Source: a virus
Strand: one strand, 5' to 3'
DNA: 31,014 nt
Virus record (IMG/VR): IMGVR_UViG_3300044626_000781
Span: 1-31,014 of that record
The position numbers and the translations under genes are program-made. Positions 3,544-26,953 of this stretch are shown here, in pieces. The notes under the pieces were generated by a model. It did no database searches. It saw only the letters and a list, made by a program, of their open reading frames with translations, and was not told where the DNA came from. How positions within the stretch are numbered: the stretch's first letter is position 1; each line of letters starts with the position of its first letter.

Positions 3544-4868
3544 CGCACCCGCAAGCGGCTGATAGAAGGCAGCGTCATGGACCAGGCATGTAGCACGGGC
3601 TGGCTGATGTAGCGCAGCGCGTCCAGCGGGTGCTTCAGGTCTTCACCCTTTGGCCCGGGCGCGTAGTTCTTCAGGCTGGTAATCAGCCCCGCGCAGCCAC
3701 GATGCACCTTCAGCGTGCCCCGCATGAAAGCAGCGTTCACCAGCTTGCTGCCCAGTTCCACGCTGCCCTTGCCTTTGTCGGGGGCTGTGATGGTGATGGT
3801 GCGGGCCCGCAGCCCAGCTGCAGCAGCCAGCGCATCCCCCAGCACTTCGTTCACCTTCATCCCTGCGCCCATCTTCCCCGCGCTGTTGATGTCGCCCACG
3901 ATGCGGGCCACGTCCGTAAGGGCCCAGCCCCAGTCCTGCAGCCTGGTCACAATGGCCCGCGCGTCCGCTTCGGGCAGCGTGGTGGTGGTGTTCACGATTT
4001 CATCCAGCACGATGAAGGTGGAATCCGTCCACAGGCACAGCAGCGCCACCTGCCTGCCGATGCCTTCCCCGTGGTCAATGCCGATGCCCAGCCGGAAGGG
4101 TTCTTCCACGGGCAGCTGGTCATCGTCCACGATGCAGCCTTCGTCAAACCCGGTGAAGGTGCGGTCCAGCACTTCCCCTTCCCAGTCCCCGAAGATGGTT
4201 TGGCGGTAGGCCCACGGGCTGGCAGCAGCTTCCGCCAACCACGCTGTGACCTGTGCGTGCGTGTACCACGGGCAGTTCCGCTGGCTGAACTCCACCACCA
4301 CCTGTTCCCACGGGCTGCCCGGTTCTTCCACCATCCGGCGGAACCACTTGCTGGGCCTGCCTATGGGGGTGAAGGTACACCACACCCAGCCGCCCCTGGA
4401 CACCACGCGCTTCACGCACTCCAGGAACACGTCCGGGGGCGGGACTTCATCAATCCACACCCCGTCAAGGTCGGACCCCGCGTGGCTGATGGCGGACTGG
4501 TCCTGACTGCGTATCTCGCAGGTGGACCCGTTCTTCAGCCGTATCAGCTGGTGCGTCCACCCATTCTCCAGGCTGAACCTGCAGCCCGTGGCCAGCGCGC
4601 TGGGGGGCAGGAAGCTGTGCAGGTATCGGGACACCACGCTGATGGACTGCTGGTAGGTCACGCCCACCGCACGGAAGCGTCCGCTGGGGGTGGCCAGCAT
4701 CAGGGCTGCCAGCTTCGCAGCAGCGTGGCGCGTCTTCCCGGTGCGATTCGCTGCCCGCACCAGGATGCGCTTGCCCTTGCTGCCCATGAAGTCCCGCAGC
4801 GCGGGGGACGGGCTGAACAGCGCCAGGGGGTTATCCGCCAGCGTGGCGCGGATGCGGTCCAGGTTCAT
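3540..4868 (-). CDS. terL: Terminase large subunit
   Basis: 442 residues. ATPase and nuclease of the packaging motor, which translocates and cuts concatemeric DNA at the portal. Walker A is AANRTGKT (residues 39-46), lacking the usual leading glycine, as in many terminases. Walker B is VWIDE, with Asp140 and Glu141. The RNase H-like nuclease shows Asp265 (GIDHGEG), Asp326 (VGDINSAG) and Asp416 (HPLDALRY). The ATG at 4866-4868 overlaps the small-subunit stop as ATGA; a longer open frame reaching 5126 is rejected because it runs through the small terminase gene. The stop codon overlaps the -35 box of the portal promoter. Confidence 0.95.
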   Translation of the reverse strand: MNLDRIRATLADNPLALFSPSPALRDFMGSKGKRILVRAANRTGKTRHAAAKLAALMLATPSGRFRAVGVTYQQSISVVSRYLHSFLPPSALATGCRFSLENGWTHQLIRLKNGSTCEIRSQDQSAISHAGSDLDGVWIDEVPPPDVFLECVKRVVSRGGWVWCTFTPIGRPSKWFRRMVEEPGSPWEQVVVEFSQRNCPWYTHAQVTAWLAEAAASPWAYRQTIFGDWEGEVLDRTFTGFDEGCIVDDDQLPVEEPFRLGIGIDHGEGIGRQVALLCLWTDSTFIVLDEIVNTTTTLPEADARAIVTRLQDWGWALTDVARIVGDINSAGKMGAGMKVNEVLGDALAAAAGLRARTITITAPDKGKGSVELGSKLVNAAFMRGTLKVHRGCAGLITSLKNYAPGPKGEDLKHPLDALRYISQPVLHAWSMTLPSISRLRVR

Positions 4869-5326
4869 GGGGCTGCAGTCACCCGGGCCAGCGCTTCCGC
4901 CAGCACGTCCGCAGGGATGGCTGCCAGGGCTTCCACCAGTTCGTCCCGGGTGGCGTAGGGCTGGACCAGCTGGCCTTCGTCCGTGCGGTCCCCAGCGCGG
5001 AAGCTGGCCCGGTCCAGTATGCTGTTGGCTGCCTGCACGCGCACCGCCCCTTTCTCGTCGGGGTCCGCGTTGACTTCTATCAGGGTGTCCGCCGCAGCCC
5101 CCGCAGCGTGGCGCAGCCGGGTCCACACGTCTGCTTCGTACTCAGCGCGGGCCACGTCCAGCGCAGCGCTGAAGACAGGCTCCGCCTTCCAGCGGTACAG
5201 CAGGGCGGTATCCACCCCGAACTTCTGGGCAGCAGCGCGCCAGGACAGCCCATCCCGCACCACCGCAGCAATGACTTCCACCTGCCTGGACGTAAGGGAC
5301 AGGGACCGCGCTGGATGGGCTGGCAT
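4865..5326 (-). CDS. Terminase small subunit (candidate)
   Basis: 153 residues, directly upstream of the large terminase and overlapping it by four bases (ATGA). The N-terminal part (about residues 8-50: SRQVEVIAAVV, LSWRAAAQKFGVDTALLYRWK) reads as a helix-turn-helix, as expected for the subunit that recognises viral DNA; the rest is helical and would mediate oligomerisation. The open frame extends to 5722, but the upstream part has a proline- and histidine-rich non-coding look and runs through the control region, so I take the ATG at 5324-5326. No clear Shine-Dalgarno precedes it. It is the first gene of the late arm. Confidence 0.82.
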   Translation of the reverse strand: MPAHPARSLSLTSRQVEVIAAVVRDGLSWRAAAQKFGVDTALLYRWKAEPVFSAALDVARAEYEADVWTRLRHAAGAAADTLIEVNADPDEKGAVRVQAANSILDRASFRAGDRTDEGQLVQPYATRDELVEALAAIPADVLAEALARVTAAP

Positions 5327-5455: not shown

Positions 5456-5623
5456 ATGGACATCCCCGCTGTGTGTTGTGGAAAGCCCTGCAGCGTGGTC
5501 TACATGACCCGGGGCCCGCTGACCGGGTGCTTGATGTACCTGCTGCGGTGGGCGGACGGGTCGGAAACGTGGCTGGCTGCCCAGTTCGTCCAGCTGGTGC
5601 CCGCCCACAGCGAAGGGTACTGA
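5456..5623 (+). CDS. Small unknown protein, first gene of the early arm
   Basis: 55 residues, function not recognised. The frame is open farther upstream to 5108 only because it shadows the terminase gene; the ATG at 5456 is the first start outside that gene. It has paired cysteines near the N-terminus (CCGKPC) and a compact pattern of hydrophobic strands ending in RWADGSETWLAAQFVQLV, like small SH3-like or regulatory phage proteins. A weak GGGG ribosome-binding site precedes it. Position right after a candidate promoter suggests a very early product. It could still be a chance frame. Confidence 0.5.
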   Translation: MDIPAVCCGKPCSVVYMTRGPLTGCLMYLLRWADGSETWLAAQFVQLVPAHSEGY

Positions 5624-5630
5624 CGGGGGC

Positions 5631-5718
5631 TTCGTTCGTATCGTACCGCCCCCCACGAGGTTACGAAGGAAATAGCGCAGGATGATCCGGCTGTTTCGTT
5701 CGTATCGTTCAATCGTAC
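5631..5718 (-). repeat. Left arm of TCGTTC repeats
   Basis: The 14-mer TTCGTTCGTATCGT occurs at 5631-5644 and again at 5695-5708. Within these, TCGTTC starts at 5632, 5696 and 5705, with degenerate TCGTAC at 5641 and 5713; spacing inside a cluster is 8 or 9 bases. The same 14-mer occurs in inverse orientation at 5823-5836. Confidence 0.85.
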
Positions 5719-5795
5719 CCACTTCCCTCTATAGTGTATTCTCGCGTGCATGGTATTACCCCCCTTCTAACTATACTACCTCTCATTTATTTCTA

Positions 5796-5809
5796 TACTC
5801 TATAGAGTA
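5796..5809. promoter_or_regulatory. Perfect 14-bp palindrome in the AT-rich core
   Basis: TACTCTATAGAGTA reads the same on both strands. A related CTCTATAG lies at 5727-5734. It could be a dimeric repressor or initiator site, or part of overlapping -10 elements (TATACT at 5794-5799). Confidence 0.7.
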
Positions 5810-5818
5810 GGGGACGAT

Positions 5819-6082
5819 ATGAACGATACGAACGAAAGTAGGCTTAGAACCGCCACTCTCAGATACGTCCTATCCGACCCCAACGAACGAATAGAACGAA
5901 CTGAACGGATGCGCAGGCATCCCCCGCTGATGCGCACCACCACGCTGCTGTGGAAGGAATCTTCCGGAAAGCCCTTGACCCCGCTGCCCGCTGCGGGGTA
6001 TTACCCTCTGGTCGGGGTTACCGCCCCATCCGTTCAAAGGGCAGGCCCACGGTGGCCAGCCCGCCAGCCTTCCGTGCGGTAA
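5819..6082 (+). CDS. Doubtful open frame over the repeat region
   Basis: 87 codons from an ATG with an AGGGGA site four bases upstream. In favour: that site, and a stop codon lying exactly in the loop of the 6063-6096 hairpin. Against: its first third is made of 9-bp repeats, which keep any frame open and give a repetitive NDTNES / NERIERTER text; codon choice there is unlike the other genes; the C-terminal part has no recognisable fold; and a promoter-like element (5975-6004) lies inside it. I keep it only as a possibility. Confidence 0.25.
   Translation: MNDTNESRLRTATLRYVLSDPNERIERTERMRRHPPLMRTTTLLWKESSGKPLTPLPAAGYYPLVGVTAPSVQRAGPRWPARQPSVR
5821..5908 (+). repeat. Right arm of GAACGA repeats
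   Basis: GAACGA starts at 5821, 5830, 5885 and 5894, followed by GAACGG at 5903. Within each cluster the period is exactly 9 bases. This is the reverse complement of the left-arm TCGTTC units, so the two arms face each other across the AT-rich core. Confidence 0.85.
5975..6004 (+). promoter_or_regulatory. Early promoter before the primase-helicase
   Basis: TTGACC (5975-5980), 18-base spacer, TATTAC (5999-6004). A GGAATC element lies 13 bases before the -35; the promoters at 8241 and 12822 have GAAATC or GGAATC 12 bases before theirs. The transcript would start near 6011 and include the 6063-6096 hairpin in its leader. Confidence 0.5.
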
Positions 6083-6096
6083 CACGGAAGGCTGGC
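6063..6096 (+). terminator. 14-bp perfect stem-loop before the primase gene
   Basis: GCCAGCCTTCCGTG (6063-6076) pairs perfectly with CACGGAAGGCTGGC (6083-6096) around a CGGTAA loop. No T-tract follows, so it may be an attenuator, a leader structure or a protein-binding RNA rather than a classical terminator. It ends 24 bases before the primase start codon. Confidence 0.6.
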
Positions 6097-6120: not shown

Positions 6121-8232
6121 ATGCCCACGCCCCGCCTTGACCTGGCCCTTGCTGCTGCAGCGATGGGCTGGGAAGTCCACCCCTGCCTGGACGTAGCGGA
6201 AGGGGACCGGAAAGCGAAGACCCCACACACCCGCTGGAAGGACGAAGCCACCACGGACCCCGCCACCATCCGCGCATGGTGGACCCGGTGGCCCACCGCC
6301 CTGGTGGGGGCGCGCACGGGCAGCGGCATCGTGGTGCTGGACTTCGATACGGACCCCACGAAGGGGCTGGAAGCGCGGGTGGCCCAGTCCACGCTGGAAG
6401 GGGCGCTGGGCCCCCTGCCCTGCACGGTGGTCAGCAACACCCCCCGGGGTGGGTGTCACCTCTACTTCACCACCCCCACCCCGATGCGCAGCGGTGCGGG
6501 GGTGCTGGGCATCCCTGGCGCGGACATCCGGGGGGAAGGGGGCTACGTCATTCTGTACGGGGACCACCCCCCTGACCCCGATGCCCTGGCCACCATCCCG
6601 GGCCCCTACGCCACCCACACGCAGCTGGCCCACTCCGCTGCGCCCCCGCCGGTCCCGCCCCCGACGAACGCACCCCACGCCACCCCCAACGCTGCCACCA
6701 TGCAGCGGGTGGCGGAACACCTGTCCACGCTGGACAGCCCCCCGGAAGGCACCCGCCATGAACAGGTGCTGTCCATGGCCCGCCTTATCGGTGGGTACGT
6801 GGGGGGCGGGCACCTGGCCTATGCGGACGCGCTGACCATGCTGGACGATGCCTGCAAGGGCCACGCGGACGCTGCAGACTCATTCCGGGCCATCCGGGCG
6901 GGCCTGATGTCGGGGATGGCAGCGCCCCTGCACCCGGGCACCCCGCAGCCCCGCCCCATCCCCCCCACCGCAGCGGGCACCGCCCCGCCCCCGTTCGCAC
7001 GCACCACAAAGACCATCAAGGGGGGCGGGGTGGTGGACGTGCCCAGCTTCCCCAACGCGGTGCTGGACCTGTTGGCCCTGCTTGAGTTCAGCACGCTGCA
7101 GGCGGACACCTTCCGGGGCACGATGTCCCTGGACCACCAGCTGGTCACGGACGCCACCATGCTGCAGGTGCGGCTGGACCTGTACCGGCTGGGGGGCACG
7201 AACTACAAAGAAGCAGACGTGGAAGCAGCGGTCAGCCACGTGGCCACGAACATCCGGGGGGTCAACCCCGTGGCCGAATACCTGCAGGGGCTGCGCTGGG
7301 ATGGGGTGCCCCGCATCCATGACTGGCTGGGCCGCAGCTTCGGCATCACCACCACCCCGCAGGAACGTGCCTACCAGCGGAAGTTCTTTCTGTGCCTGGC
7401 AGCCCGCATCCTGCAGCCGGGCTGCAAGGTGGACGACTGCCTGTCCATCCTGGGCCCCCCTGGCGTGAAGAAATCCACGCTGTTCCGTGCGCTGGTGCCC
7501 AGTCCTGACCTGTTCACGGACAGCCACATGGACCTGGAGAATAAAGACACCTTCCTGAAGCTGCGCCGGGTGTGCCTGGTCGAAATCGGGGAAGAGCGGG
7601 ACTTTCTGCGGGGCGGGCAGGAAGCCACGAAGCGCTTCCTTTCCACGCAGGAAGACTTCTACCGGGCCCCCTTCGGGCGCACCGTGGAGAGTCACCCCCG
7701 GCATTGCGTCTTCGTCATCACCACGAACGCACGCAGGCCCAGCATCTTCATGGACTTCACGGGGGAAGGCCGGCGCTACTGGCCCATCAGTCTGTATGAC
7801 CGGCAGGGCCTGCACGATGCGGACGTGCGGTGGCTGGAAGCCCACCGGGACCAGCTGTGGGCGGAAGCCATCGTGGCCTTCCGCAGCGGGGAACTGCACT
7901 ACTTTGACACCCCGGAAGACAAGCTGGCCCACCAGCAGCACTTCCGCCAGTACCTTGACCTGGACCCCACGGACCTGCAGGTGGAAGCGGCGCTGGAAGC
8001 CCTGCGCAAAGATTCCTTTACGCTGGGGGAAGTGCTGGAACGGATGCGGGTGCCCATCAGCGAGTACGGAAAGAACACCCGCCGGGTGACCGCATCCCTG
8101 GAACGGCTTCAGTACGAAGTGACCAGCTACACCTACACGAAGAACCGGAACCGGGTGCCCGTGTGGGCCAGCCGCACCGCCCCCGCCACGGGGGCCCCTT
8201 CGGACGTGCTGCCCTTCGTGAAGAAATCCTGA
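6121..8232 (+). CDS. Primase-polymerase / VapE-like helicase (replication initiator)
   Basis: 703 residues, two modules. The N-terminal half fits the bifunctional Prim-Pol (archaeo-eukaryotic primase) family, with the catalytic pair in VVLDFDTDP (Asp74, Asp76). The C-terminal half fits the virulence-associated E / D5-like ATPase family: Walker A GPPGVKKST (445-453), Walker B VCLVEIGE (484-491), and a downstream GEGRRYWPI segment (about 549-557). A proline-rich linker joins them. It would unwind and prime phage DNA, perhaps at the adjacent repeat region. The ATG at 6121 is preferred (AGGTG site) over the frame's earlier start at 5950, which would force translation through the 14-bp hairpin and gives unlikely N-terminal sequence. 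Confidence 0.9.
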   Translation: MPTPRLDLALAAAAMGWEVHPCLDVAEGDRKAKTPHTRWKDEATTDPATIRAWWTRWPTALVGARTGSGIVVLDFDTDPTKGLEARVAQSTLEGALGPLPCTVVSNTPRGGCHLYFTTPTPMRSGAGVLGIPGADIRGEGGYVILYGDHPPDPDALATIPGPYATHTQLAHSAAPPPVPPPTNAPHATPNAATMQRVAEHLSTLDSPPEGTRHEQVLSMARLIGGYVGGGHLAYADALTMLDDACKGHADAADSFRAIRAGLMSGMAAPLHPGTPQPRPIPPTAAGTAPPPFARTTKTIKGGGVVDVPSFPNAVLDLLALLEFSTLQADTFRGTMSLDHQLVTDATMLQVRLDLYRLGGTNYKEADVEAAVSHVATNIRGVNPVAEYLQGLRWDGVPRIHDWLGRSFGITTTPQERAYQRKFFLCLAARILQPGCKVDDCLSILGPPGVKKSTLFRALVPSPDLFTDSHMDLENKDTFLKLRRVCLVEIGEERDFLRGGQEATKRFLSTQEDFYRAPFGRTVESHPRHCVFVITTNARRPSIFMDFTGEGRRYWPISLYDRQGLHDADVRWLEAHRDQLWAEAIVAFRSGELHYFDTPEDKLAHQQHFRQYLDLDPTDLQVEAALEALRKDSFTLGEVLERMRVPISEYGKNTRRVTASLERLQYEVTSYTYTKNRNRVPVWASRTAPATGAPSDVLPFVKKS

Positions 8233-8326: not shown

Positions 8327-8740
8327 ATGAACGAAGACCTGACCACCCCTGCGCCCTTCAAAGGACTGGCCCCGACTGAAGCAGCGCTGGCGGAAGTGCT
8401 GCGGCTGCACGCCACTCGACACACGGGAGGTCAGCGGGCCGACCTTAGCGGGGCCGACCTGACCGGGGCCAACCTGCACGGGGCCCACCTGACCGGGGCC
8501 GACCTTAGCGGGGCCGACCTGACCGGGGCCTACCTGCGCGGGGCCAACCTGACCGGGGCCGACCTGACCGGGGCCGACCTGCGCTGGGCCGACCTGTCCG
8601 GGGCCAACCTGCGCGGGGCCGACCTGACCGGGGCCAACCTGACCGGGGCCAACCTGCGCGGGGCCGACCTGACCGGGGCCAACCTGACCGGGGCCGACCT
8701 GCGCTGGGCCGACCTGACCGGCGCACGGGGGCGGGAATGA
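8327..8740 (+). CDS. Pentapeptide-repeat protein
   Basis: 137 residues: a 37-residue non-repeat head, then 19 consecutive A(D/N)LXX pentapeptides (residues 38-132) and a five-residue tail. Such repeats build a right-handed quadrilateral beta-helix; 19 units give not quite five coils. In MfpA and Qnr proteins this fold mimics DNA and acts on gyrase, and an acidic Asp-rich helix as here could also counter a restriction enzyme; that role is inference. It is the first gene after promoter cassette A and overlaps the next gene by ATGA. No clear Shine-Dalgarno. Shorter than Qnr (about 215 residues) and lacking their loops. Confidence 0.9.
8436..8720 (+). repeat. 19 tandem 15-bp repeats encoding pentapeptides
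   Basis: Every unit follows GGGCCGACCTGACCG with a few substitutions. Units 12-14 (8601-8645) and 15-17 (8646-8690) are an identical 45-bp duplication, and units 1-2 equal units 5-6. Such near-identity at DNA level implies recent expansion by slippage or recombination, and a short-read assembly may have the wrong copy number here. Confidence 0.95.
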
Positions 8741-9042
8741 CCCCCCGCCGGGGCAGGCCCCCGATGGATCCCAACCAGCTGCGGTGCCAGCGGGTTGAAG
8801 TGCGCCTGACTGCCCTGGAACTGGAACTGCTGGATGCGCTGCGGGGGCGGGTGTCCCGCAGCCGCTTTCTGCTGGAACCGCTCCACGCCACCATGACTTT
8901 GCTGCGGGGGGCCCCTTCGGGGATGGCCCCTTCCCAACCCGGGACGGGTGAACCCACAGGTGACCTGCCCTGTTCCAGCGCTGTGGAGACACAGCCCCCC
9001 CGCAGCATCCCCACCACCCCCACCACGCGGAAGCCCCGATGA
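8737..9042 (+). CDS. Ribbon-helix-helix-like DNA-binding protein
   Basis: 101 residues. After a basic N-terminus, [19 protein letters not shown] and then [10 protein letters not shown] fit a ribbon-helix-helix (CopG/Arc-like): strand at about 18-24, helix 26-36, turn RGRVS, helix 41-52. The last 45 residues are proline/threonine-rich and probably disordered. It overlaps its neighbours on both sides by ATGA (8737-8740 and 9039-9042), so it is made with the pentapeptide-repeat protein and may repress its own promoter cassettes. The family match is from pattern only. Confidence 0.6.
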
Positions 9043-13084: not shown

Positions 13085-13176
13085 TGGGCCCGGATACCGC
13101 CCTGCTGCTGGCGCTGTGTGGGCTGCTGGCGACTGTGGAAGCCCTGCGGATGGTCCTGACCTGGCCCCGCAGGTAA
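13084..13176 (+). CDS. 30-residue single-span membrane peptide
   Basis: ATG overlaps the previous stop (TGATG). The peptide is a single hydrophobic helix (about residues 5-22, ALLLALCGLLATVEAL) ending in a positively charged RR, the usual layout of a very small inner-membrane protein. A set of hairpins follows its stop codon at once. Role unknown; in the early arm it might act on the host membrane or anchor replication, but nothing shows this directly. Confidence 0.5.
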   Translation: MGPDTALLLALCGLLATVEALRMVLTWPRR

Positions 13177-13181
13177 CGGAA

Positions 13182-13254
13182 GGGGGCCCGAAGCCCCCGC
13201 ACCACCCCCGCCATTCCGGCGGGGGCTGGCGTAGCCCGCTGCATGGATGCGGGC
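13182..13254 (+). terminator. Three successive hairpins
   Basis: Hairpin 1: GGGGGC (13182-13187) with GCCCCC (13193-13198). Hairpin 2: CCCCCGCC (13205-13212) with GGCGGGGG (13218-13225), five-base loop. Hairpin 3: GCCCGC (13234-13239) with GCGGGC (13249-13254). They fill most of the 125-base gap before the ssDNA-binding gene. They may end upstream transcription partly or shield the 5' end of the next message. No T-run follows any of them. Confidence 0.5.
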
Positions 13255-13301
13255 GATGGAACCACACGGACGTGGACGAAGACCAGACACGGAGCAATAT
13301 C

Positions 13302-13742
13302 ATGGGCATCTTCAGCAACATCGGAAACACGGAAGCAGCGCGGGCCCGGGGCACGTTCTTCACCCGGGGCACCTACACGGGCAGCGTGCTGTCCTGCCGT
13401 CACGTCAAGTCCCGCGTGGGCACGGATGAGTTCTTCGTGGTGGACTTCCACATCCTGGAGAGCACGAACCCGGAACTGCCCCGGGGCAGCACGGGCACCT
13501 GGATGGCCAAACTGACTGGCAAGTATCCGGCGCTGGCGCTGGCGGACGTGAAAGCGTTTGTCATGGCTGCCACGGATTCCACGGAAGCGGACGTGGGGGA
13601 AGCGGAAGTGACGGAAGCGGTCAGCGGGGACGGCACCCTGCTGGCTGGCAGCCAGGTGGTGGTCACGGTGGAAGACGTGCGCACGAAGGCGGGGGCACCG
13701 TTCAGCAAGCACAGCTTTCGCACCCCCAGCCCCGAAGCGTAG
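13302..13742 (+). CDS. Phage ssDNA-binding-type protein
   Basis: 146 residues. The layout matches a common phage replication-module family: MGIFSNIGN start, FFxxGxYxxxV strand, CRHVKSRVGTDEFFVVDFHILES, a conserved GSxGxWMxKL region and a C-terminal strand with a KxGxxFxxHxF pattern. Members are usually annotated as single-stranded DNA-binding proteins and lie beside the DNA polymerase, as here. It would coat template strands. The ATG at 13302 has a GGAG site seven bases upstream. It lacks the acidic C-terminal tip of bacterial SSB, so partner contacts may differ. Family recall is from memory. Confidence 0.7.
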   Translation: MGIFSNIGNTEAARARGTFFTRGTYTGSVLSCRHVKSRVGTDEFFVVDFHILESTNPELPRGSTGTWMAKLTGKYPALALADVKAFVMAATDSTEADVGEAEVTEAVSGDGTLLAGSQVVVTVEDVRTKAGAPFSKHSFRTPSPEA

Positions 13743-13829: not shown

Positions 13830-15698
13830 ATGCCCACCCCCGCCCACGTGGCCTTTGACTGGGAAACCTGCCTGATTCAGCCCGGCATCGTGGCCCCCCA
13901 GCCCGTCTGCCTTTCGTGGGCCCGGGAAGGGGACGTGGGGCTGGTGACTGCTGCGGACGCATGGCCCCTGCTGCTGGGCTGGCTGGAAGACCCCCAGACC
14001 GTGCTGGTAGGGGCCCGCACCACCTTTGACCTAGGGGTGGCACTGACGTGGTGCCCCAGTCAGGAACGGATGGCGGAAGCCATCGCGCTGGCCTATGCGC
14101 AGCAGCGCATCCGTGACGTGCAGGTGCGGGCCAAGCTGGTGGCACTGGCGGAAGGCTGGCTGTCCTTTGACATTGCCCTGAGGAAGATGCCCAGTTTCAG
14201 CCTGGCTGCGCTGGCCCAGCGATACCTGGGGGCCACGCTGGACAAGTCCGCTGACACCTGGCGGCTGCGCTACTCTGAACTGCTGGGGAAGGCCATCCAC
14301 GAATACCCGGGCCCCGCCATTGACTACGCGGTGATGGATGCGCAGGCCACGCTGGACGTGTATGCGGCGCTGGCTGAACGGCAGCACCCCCCGAAGGTCA
14401 CCCCAGACCTGTTCACGAACGAAGCGGAACAGACGGAAGCGGACTGGTTCCTGGCCCTGATGTCCATGACGGGGCTGGACGTGGACCCCGCCGGGGCTGC
14501 CCAGCTGGAAGTGGACTTGCGGGCCAGTCTGGTGGACGTGCGGGCAGCGATGGCTGCAGCAGGCATCCTGCGCCCCAACGGCACGAAGGATATGGGGGCG
14601 CTGCGGGCGCGGGTGGAAGCTGCCTACCGCACGCTGGGCCGCCCCTGCCCTGTGACGGACAAAGGGGCCACCAGCACCGCAGCGGACACCCTGGAAGGCT
14701 GCGGGGATGCCCTGCTGGAAGCGGTGGCGGAAGCGTCCAGCAGCGAGAAACTGCTATCTGCCTTCGTGCCGATGCTGCAGCTGGGCATCGTGAACCCCAG
14801 CTATGACGTGCTGAAGGAATCCGGGCGCACCAGCAGCTACGGTCCCAACATCCAGCAGATGCCCCAGGGGGGCGGGGTGCGGGAACTGTTCCGCCCCCCG
14901 CCGGGCCACGTGTTCCTGGATGCGGACTACTCCACGATAGAACTGGCAGCGCTGGCGCAGGTGTGTCTGGACAAGTTCGGCCGCAGCCGGATGGCGGAAG
15001 CCATCAATGCGGGGATGGACTTGCACGTGCTGACCGCTGCCCACATTCACCGGCTGGACTACGCGGAAGCGCTGGCCCGGTACACCGCAGGGGACGAAGA
15101 ACTGAAGGCAGCGCGGAAGCTGGCTAAGGTGCTGAACTTCGGGCTGCCTGGGGGGATGGGGGCGGACAGCTTCGTGGAGTACGCGCGGGGCTTCGGGCTG
15201 GACCTGGACGCGCGCTTCGTGCAGGGGCTGAAGTCGGACTGGCTGCAGGCATACCCGGAAATGCAGGACTACTTCCACCACCTGGCCCAGCTGGCGGGGG
15301 CTGCGGAAGCCTTCACCCTGGTGCAGCTGCGCAGCGGGCGGGTGCGGGCGGGGTGCCGGTACACCAGCGGGTGTAACAGCTACTTTCAGGGGCTGGCTGC
15401 GGACGGTGCGAAGCGGGCGGGGTGCCTGCTGGCCCGGCGGGTGCTGCTGCCCAGCGGGGGGCCCCTGTACGGCTGCCTGCTTCATGCCTTCGTACATGAC
15501 GAGTTCCTGATAAGTGCCCCCGTGGCCACCTTCAGGGAAGCAGCCACCGCGCTGGAAGCCACGATGGTGGAAGGCATGGCCCACTTCATCCCAGACGTGG
15601 CCATCCGGGTGGACGTGACCGCATCCGACCGATGGGCAAAGGCTGCCCGGCGCATCGTGGACGGGGACGGGCTGCTGCAGGTATGGTCCCCCGCATGA
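13830..15698 (+). CDS. DNA polymerase I-like (family A) replicative polymerase
   Basis: 622 residues with 3'-5' exonuclease and polymerase domains but no 5' nuclease. Exonuclease: Asp10/Glu12 (FDWETC), Asp67 (GARTTFDLG), Tyr166/Asp170 (DYAVMD). Polymerase motif A: DADYSTIEL, catalytic Asp366. Motif B: KVLNFGLPGGMG, with Lys433 and Phe437. Motif C: VHDEF, with Asp557 and Glu558. In motif B the position of Taq Tyr671 is Gly441, a variant I recall in other phage polymerases. It should copy the phage genome with the primase-helicase. ACGGAGTAGCCCCG precedes the ATG, the same site cassette found before several late genes. Confidence 0.95.
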   Translation: MPTPAHVAFDWETCLIQPGIVAPQPVCLSWAREGDVGLVTAADAWPLLLGWLEDPQTVLVGARTTFDLGVALTWCPSQERMAEAIALAYAQQRIRDVQVRAKLVALAEGWLSFDIALRKMPSFSLAALAQRYLGATLDKSADTWRLRYSELLGKAIHEYPGPAIDYAVMDAQATLDVYAALAERQHPPKVTPDLFTNEAEQTEADWFLALMSMTGLDVDPAGAAQLEVDLRASLVDVRAAMAAAGILRPNGTKDMGALRARVEAAYRTLGRPCPVTDKGATSTAADTLEGCGDALLEAVAEASSSEKLLSAFVPMLQLGIVNPSYDVLKESGRTSSYGPNIQQMPQGGGVRELFRPPPGHVFLDADYSTIELAALAQVCLDKFGRSRMAEAINAGMDLHVLTAAHIHRLDYAEALARYTAGDEELKAARKLAKVLNFGLPGGMGADSFVEYARGFGLDLDARFVQGLKSDWLQAYPEMQDYFHHLAQLAGAAEAFTLVQLRSGRVRAGCRYTSGCNSYFQGLAADGAKRAGCLLARRVLLPSGGPLYGCLLHAFVHDEFLISAPVATFREAATALEATMVEGMAHFIPDVAIRVDVTASDRWAKAARRIVDGDGLLQVWSPA

Positions 15699-26407: not shown

Positions 26408-26953
26408 CTACGCGCTGCGCCCGATAACGAGCAAGTCCCAGGTGTTGGTGCTGCCCGCCACCCCGCTGGTGGTCACCCGCAGCACGTCCCCCGTGCCAGC
26501 GGTCACGGGCACGCCGTCTTTCGCGTACAGCACCAGCCAGCTGTCGGGGGCCACGATGCTGCCCTGGTCAGCGTCCGCAGCTGCATCCGCAGGCCAGAAG
26601 CCCCGGCTGCTGGCCAGTCGCCCGAAGCCGTTCGTGGCGTGGGGGCCCACGTCCAGGTACGCCAGCGCGGTGGTGCGCTTGTTGCGCACCGCAATCAGGC
26701 AGACTTCCACGAAGGTGAGAGTGGTCCCGAAGCTGTCAAACAGCGACCCCGCCAGGTCGTAGCTGGTGACCGTGGAAGCAGCCACGCCGGAAGCGGTGGT
26801 GGCGTACACCAGGTCAGCCTGGCCATCAGCGGTGCCCGTGGTCAGGTCCAGCAGCACGTGGAAGTTGGACGGAATGACCCCCGCGCGGATGCCGGCGGAA
26901 AGCAGTTCCTGGGCGCGGATGTCAACGGCGATGCGGGCGGATGCGGTTCCCAT
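26408..26953 (-). CDS. Tail-tube-associated structural protein
   Basis: 181 residues directly after the tail tube gene. Beta-rich, with helix AVDIRAQELLSAGI at the start, then YDLAGSLFDSFGTTLTFVEVCLIAVRN and a C-terminal strand pair GDVLRVTTSG and TWDLLVIGRS. I recall similar small proteins in phage tail modules, but the role (tube decoration, second tube or inner protein) is not known. AAGGAAG precedes the start. No membrane segment. Confidence 0.6.
   Translation of the reverse strand: MGTASARIAVDIRAQELLSAGIRAGVIPSNFHVLLDLTTGTADGQADLVYATTASGVAASTVTSYDLAGSLFDSFGTTLTFVEVCLIAVRNKRTTALAYLDVGPHATNGFGRLASSRGFWPADAAADADQGSIVAPDSWLVLYAKDGVPVTAGTGDVLRVTTSGVAGSTNTWDLLVIGRSA

Follow-up and report, generated by a model that had tools for sequence, protein, structure and literature searches.

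Between two divergent operons of an uncultured phage, short units spaced 9 bp apart face each other across an AT-rich core. Judged from its sequence, this element (~5631-5911 of the window, by which we mean the whole 31,014-base virus record analyzed here, a ~31-kb phage with a 127-bp end repeat) is built like an iteron origin and has the neighbors expected of one, and it is most likely the replication origin of the phage. An earlier note on this DNA had read it as either a two-way operator or an iteron-bearing origin. We favor the origin because the architecture is conserved in relatives while the unit sequence changes, because similar arrays adjoin one class of primase-helicase in many phages, whatever the gene orientation, and because the anatomy matches published PICI/SaPI origins. 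If correct, the phage gains a specific, testable origin and a named probable initiator.

Anatomy of the array and its surroundings

The genes on the left, terS and TerL, run leftward. Those on the right begin with the primase-helicase gene (6121-8232), followed further on by a nuclease, a helicase-like protein and a family-A DNA polymerase (13830-15698). The repeats lie in the ~800 bp between terS (ATG at 5326) and the primase gene, and thus between divergent operons and beside the primase-helicase, where the earlier note had placed them (Table 1). Two independent assemblies (L006 and L007) carry the array sequence at 99.95-100%, so it is no assembly artefact. When viral contigs were searched for exact matches to the 16-mer TTCGTTCGTATCGTTC, 23 contigs were found, among which only the same phage's own contigs match the window elsewhere.

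Table 1. Features of the array and of the genes beside it, in window positions
Feature	Position	Strand	Remark
Terminase small subunit gene (terS), divergent neighbor	4865..5326	-	
Outer left iteron copy TTCGTTCGTATCGT	5631..5644	-	GAACGAA-type units on minus strand
Inner left iteron pair (TCGTTC 5696 + 5705, 9 bp apart); left arm of 18-bp inverted repeat	5694..5711	-	
AT-rich core, 108 bp between arms; probable DNA unwinding element	5712..5819	.	unwinding role putative
Perfect 14-bp palindrome TACTCTATAGAGTA within core	5796..5809	.	
Inner right iteron pair (GAACGA 5821 + 5830); right arm of 18-bp inverted repeat	5820..5837	+	
Outer right iterons GAACGAATA-GAACGAACT-GAACGGATG, three units, exact 9-bp spacing	5885..5911	+	
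Perfect 14-bp hairpin between array and primase start, no T-run	6063..6096	+	
Primase-helicase gene: PF09250 Prim-Pol + PF05272 VapE-like helicase; presumed initiator	6121..8232	+	
C-terminal winged-helix domain, codons 609-688; candidate iteron-binding domain	7945..8184	+	fold predicted, binding putative

The units listed in the earlier note are all present: TCGTTC at 5632, 5696 and 5705 on the left, GAACGA at 5821, 5830, 5885 and 5894 on the right, and GAACGG, readable directly in the sequence, at 5903. The strongest element had been missed. It is a perfect 18-bp inverted repeat, TTTCGTTCGTATCGTTCA, with arms 108 bp apart and a third copy, 14 bp long, at the outer left edge of the array. Seven copies of one 6-mer occurred in 0 of 2000 dinucleotide shuffles of 5601-5930, an inverted repeat of at least 18 bp occurred in 0.2% of such shuffles, and in both arrays identity at lag 9 exceeds that at every other lag from 5 to 21. 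The repetition is beyond chance by these shuffles.

The core was also correctly described as unusually AT-rich: it has the lowest GC content of the genome over 50, 100 and 200 bp (32% in 50 bp and 44% in 200 bp, against a genome mean of 67%), with the lowest 50 bp at 5755-5804. The 14-bp palindrome within it is real; taken alone it is unremarkable, because the genome holds six perfect palindromes of at least 14 bp. The arithmetic by which 9-base units, each worth three codons, keep a reading frame open across the array is right as well. An open frame of this kind needs no coding function, and most of the other arrays that we found are intergenic. On both strands (5694-5722, minus; 5811-5837, plus) a GGG run, a start codon and the first codons are alike, TTG or ATG being followed by AAC GAT ACG AAC GAA, such that two opposed short ORFs would share their first residues. 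This shared start is probably a by-product of the inverted repeat.

Nucleotide skew, which had been proposed as a check, speaks against an origin at this place insofar as cumulative GC skew does not turn at the array and reaches its extremes elsewhere, at 25.2 and 17.6 kb. Around the circle, cumulative AT skew is lowest at 5801, coinciding with the switch in gene orientation and confounded by it. We therefore rejected skew as an origin marker.

Arrays in relatives and in other phages

An alignment of TerL reached 21 loci. In one group of these, L039-L046 (TerL 53-55% to the window), the stretch between primase and terS carries GATCAACAC-type units, then an AT-rich core that includes a palindrome, and then GTGTTGATC units. 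Conservation of the repeats in relatives, another check that had been suggested, thus holds for the architecture: the group keeps it with a different unit, GTGTTGATC, mostly at 9-10 bp spacing. As the primase of this group (~30% identical to that of the window) is co-directional with terS, opposite to its orientation in the window, the array remains beside the primase even where the two genes are not divergent. The nearest relative that has a complete primase (L004, 54% in the primase) counts against the origin reading, having kept the AT-rich core with no clear iterons. At the contig end of a further locus (L008, 1-109), upstream of terS, we observed an AT-rich inverted repeat with perfect 18-bp arms, together with two copies of GGCTTCGTAGATGGAAGCC.

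We viewed six phages with the same primase-helicase class as loci with 4-kb flanks. Clear arrays adjoin the primase in PS3, U5 and Fontainebleau, those of Aval and Javan405 are weak, and BC669P2 has none beside its primase. Ten further phage records were then picked before their arrays were viewed. Here, strong arrays adjoin the primase in S-LBS1, CL31 (both primases), FutureBee, YeP4 and StAB; the array of LilStuart is weak, that of S-2L very weak, and ep3 and 1358 have none beside the primase. The weak and missing arrays of these two sets weigh against the origin reading. When repeat clusters were scored by uncorrected Poisson statistics, taking the top clusters of each record, 11 clusters in the ten records had log10 P below -12, and 6 of the 11 lie at most 400 bp from a primase gene. 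Of the other five, three are repeats inside genes, one duplicates a primase array and one is an array 2.3 kb off. In Montesquieu, opposed AGAGCATG units with 11-bp spacing (13122-13333) lie 2.3 kb from the primase, near the record end. Within the window, repeat scans are dominated genome-wide by in-frame ACCTGACC repeats of a pentapeptide-repeat protein gene (8327-8740), directly after the primase.

Unrelated phages of this primase-helicase class often have an array at most a few hundred bp from the gene, and each such array has its own unit sequence. Over 17 arrays, with the unit of each picked by hand, the modal spacing between neighbors is 9 bp; this exact value accounts for 26 of 47 same-strand spacings. 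Each of the two primase genes of CL31 has a different opposed 9-bp array beside it, which makes this phage a natural test of specificity. One of its arrays, of GGGACAA units, is present in two copies (4341-4578 and 14476-14712), one adjoining primase clg_09 and the other ~10 kb away. An "AAC" core seemingly shared among iteron units was discarded, its orientation to the AT core being inconsistent and chance a possible cause.

We next formulated the pattern as a strict rule: a 6-mer must occur twice at a distance of exactly 9 bp, and its reverse complement must follow within 250 bp, likewise twice and exactly 9 bp apart. In the window genome this detector matches once, at the element itself. 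In a run over ~450 kb it otherwise matches pRN1, CL31 (twice, plus one duplicate), FutureBee, BIP-1 and two of the distant primase loci from an alignment search (L033 and L035 among L033-L035); BIP-1 and pRN1 were included because a paper pointed to them. Every one of these matches adjoins a primase gene (~0.5 kb away in BIP-1) or is the CL31 duplicate. The detector matched once in 7.34 Mb of shuffled sequence and 0 times in 194 kb of unrelated viral contigs. Since it misses looser arrays, it is specific rather than sensitive. It offers a simple sequence rule for origins beside PrimPol/VapE-type primase-helicases, applicable to many unannotated phages.

The same comparisons bear on two other explanations. 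As terS adjoins the array both in the window and in the L039-L046 group, the repeats might be a pac or cos site at which the small terminase subunit encoded next door would bind for packaging; we regard this as very unlikely, given that the arrays of PS3, CL31 and Fontainebleau adjoin the primase, kilobases from annotated terminase genes. Short direct repeats are also typical of partition-like (centromere) arrays and other maintenance sites. That the array is one of these seems slightly less probable still: there is no partition ATPase among the proteins scanned, and an AT-rich core with linkage to a primase is a better fit for an origin.

Candidate readers of the 9-bp units

If the array is a two-way operator, then a phage repressor, such as the ribbon-helix-helix-like protein encoded at 8737-9042 (judged by eye; no Pfam match), should bind the repeats and control both divergent operons. 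The position of the array between divergent genes would suit such a role, as would the fact that the repeats overlap putative start regions of ORFs in either direction. Nevertheless, a promoter scan found no sigma-70-type promoter pair in the core, and the array accompanies the primase gene in other phages, including those without a divergent arrangement.

The L039-L046 loci are more telling, as they carry two arrays. One, upstream of the ribbon-helix-helix gene in the intergenic region upstream of terS, is of GTATGTAC type in L039 and L044 and of GTTGTGG type in L040, L042, L043, L045 and L046. The N-terminal strand of the ribbon-helix-helix protein switches with it, from DSRFNVRF (GTATGTAC) to PATLHVRF (GTTGTGG; PSTLHVRF in L045). 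The protein is otherwise nearly unchanged between the two versions, a natural specificity switch. Across both groups the 9-bp array and, where readable, the C-terminus of the primase hardly change; thus, in these relatives, the 9-bp array does not covary with the DNA-contacting strand, as an operator for this protein should. The seven loci are not all independent, L042 and L043 being near-identical here. As the strand switches with the first array while the 9-bp array is constant, the first array is most likely the target of the ribbon-helix-helix protein, and the 9-bp array that of another factor. We consider an operator as the primary function unlikely, and the ribbon-helix-helix protein, put forward earlier as a binder, is disfavored. 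As a secondary role, protein bound to an array in this position, with operons leading away on either side, might also dampen their transcription in both directions.

Sequence comparison points to the primase-helicase as the likeliest protein to read the 9-bp units. Its helicase domain matches PDB 7pds ("similar to D. nodosus vapE", E 2e-20), and its Prim-Pol region weakly resembles pRN1 ORF904 (1ro0). Structure prediction for the full protein was poor (mean pLDDT 45 with four sequences, 36 with one), leaving the C-terminal domain as its usable part. Here, residues 609-688 are predicted with modest confidence to form a winged helix, and the structural matches (Z about 6) speak for the fold only.

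Collectively, these data suggest a model in which the C-terminal winged helix would read the 9-bp units and one primase-helicase oligomer would assemble on each side of the core. Two helicase rings could then load face to face and melt the AT-rich core, after which the Prim-Pol domain would prime bidirectional synthesis and the family-A DNA polymerase of the phage would extend it. The unit sequence and the binding domain presumably change together over time, and therefore the architecture would be kept while its spelling drifts.

Comparison with known origins

Our open literature searches on PrimPol and iterons found nothing direct. PICI/SaPI origins consist of two groups of short iterons with an AT-rich region between them, directly downstream of the rep or helicase gene (PMC6092414; PMC7581432), and SaPI Rep reads the iterons through its C-terminal domain (PMC7581432). 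The window likewise has two short-iteron sets around an AT-rich region beside a primase-helicase gene, and its helicase is of the same broad class by the match to 7pds. An initiator helicase (PF05272) with a DNA-binding domain at its C-terminus, here a predicted winged helix, would be a further likeness. Unlike in SaPIs, the array lies upstream of the gene start (6121) rather than directly downstream of rep, which counts against the origin reading; the carrier is an autonomous phage, the PrimPol and VapE parts are fused in one gene, the unit sequence is its own, and the element is known here from sequence.

Phage P4 provides a further parallel, drawn from its published description: a winged-helix primase-helicase, the alpha protein, binds repeats at the origin (PMC4234260), although its primase is of the TOPRIM type. 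Initiators with an archaeo-eukaryotic primase, an SF3 helicase and a winged helix have been proposed to assemble at a stem-loop, and no origin iterons were reported in pRN1 or phage BIP-1 (PMC4234260). In the Bordetella phage BIP-1, we find the arrangement GCCTCGTTTGCCTCGTTT - AT core - AAACGAGGCAAACGAGGC (record ~26610-26710), in which GCCTCGTTT pairs and opposed AAACGAGGC pairs, each at exactly 9 bp, flank an AT-rich core. This array lies ~0.5 kb beyond the replication gene, whereas the stem-loop singled out in published work is closer to the gene.

The pRN1 family of Sulfolobus plasmids has an initiator that combines primase, SF3 helicase and winged helix (PMC4234260; PMC3869888), and the window, too, has an AEP primase. 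The origin of this family is an essential 100-bp region with inverted arms of about 20 bp around an AT-rich loop; pRN1 has 21-bp arms and a 58-bp loop, compared to the perfect 18-bp arms and 108-bp loop in the window. The plasmids differ in being archaeal, and their origin in being described as an iteron-free stem-loop, in having only two units per arm and in lying downstream of the gene. TGTCCA occurs four times in the whole of pRN1 (5087, 5096, 5166 and 5175), two per arm of the essential stem-loop. The left arms of pRN1, pRN2 and pHEN7 each hold two units at 9-bp lag, with other sequences in pRN2 and pHEN7, and the arms of pDL10 and pSSVx show no clear 9-bp pairs. Pooled over the five left arms, lag-9 identity exceeds that of all 20,000 mononucleotide shuffles, the plasmids being related and the arm boundaries chosen by hand.

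We put at about even the chance that one design, 9-bp units in opposed pairs or arrays around an AT-rich core, serves a broad class of C-terminal winged-helix primase-helicases in phages, satellites and archaeal plasmids. If so, the pRN1 "stem-loop" would be four iterons and not a folded structure, a competing explanation for an archaeal plasmid origin described as free of iterons. Deletions of 3 bp in the pRN1 loop are reported to abolish transformation, and the loop is described as insensitive to base substitution (PMC3869888); this behavior would fit phased complexes on facing iterons, with the deletions killing the origin by shifting the phase between the two.
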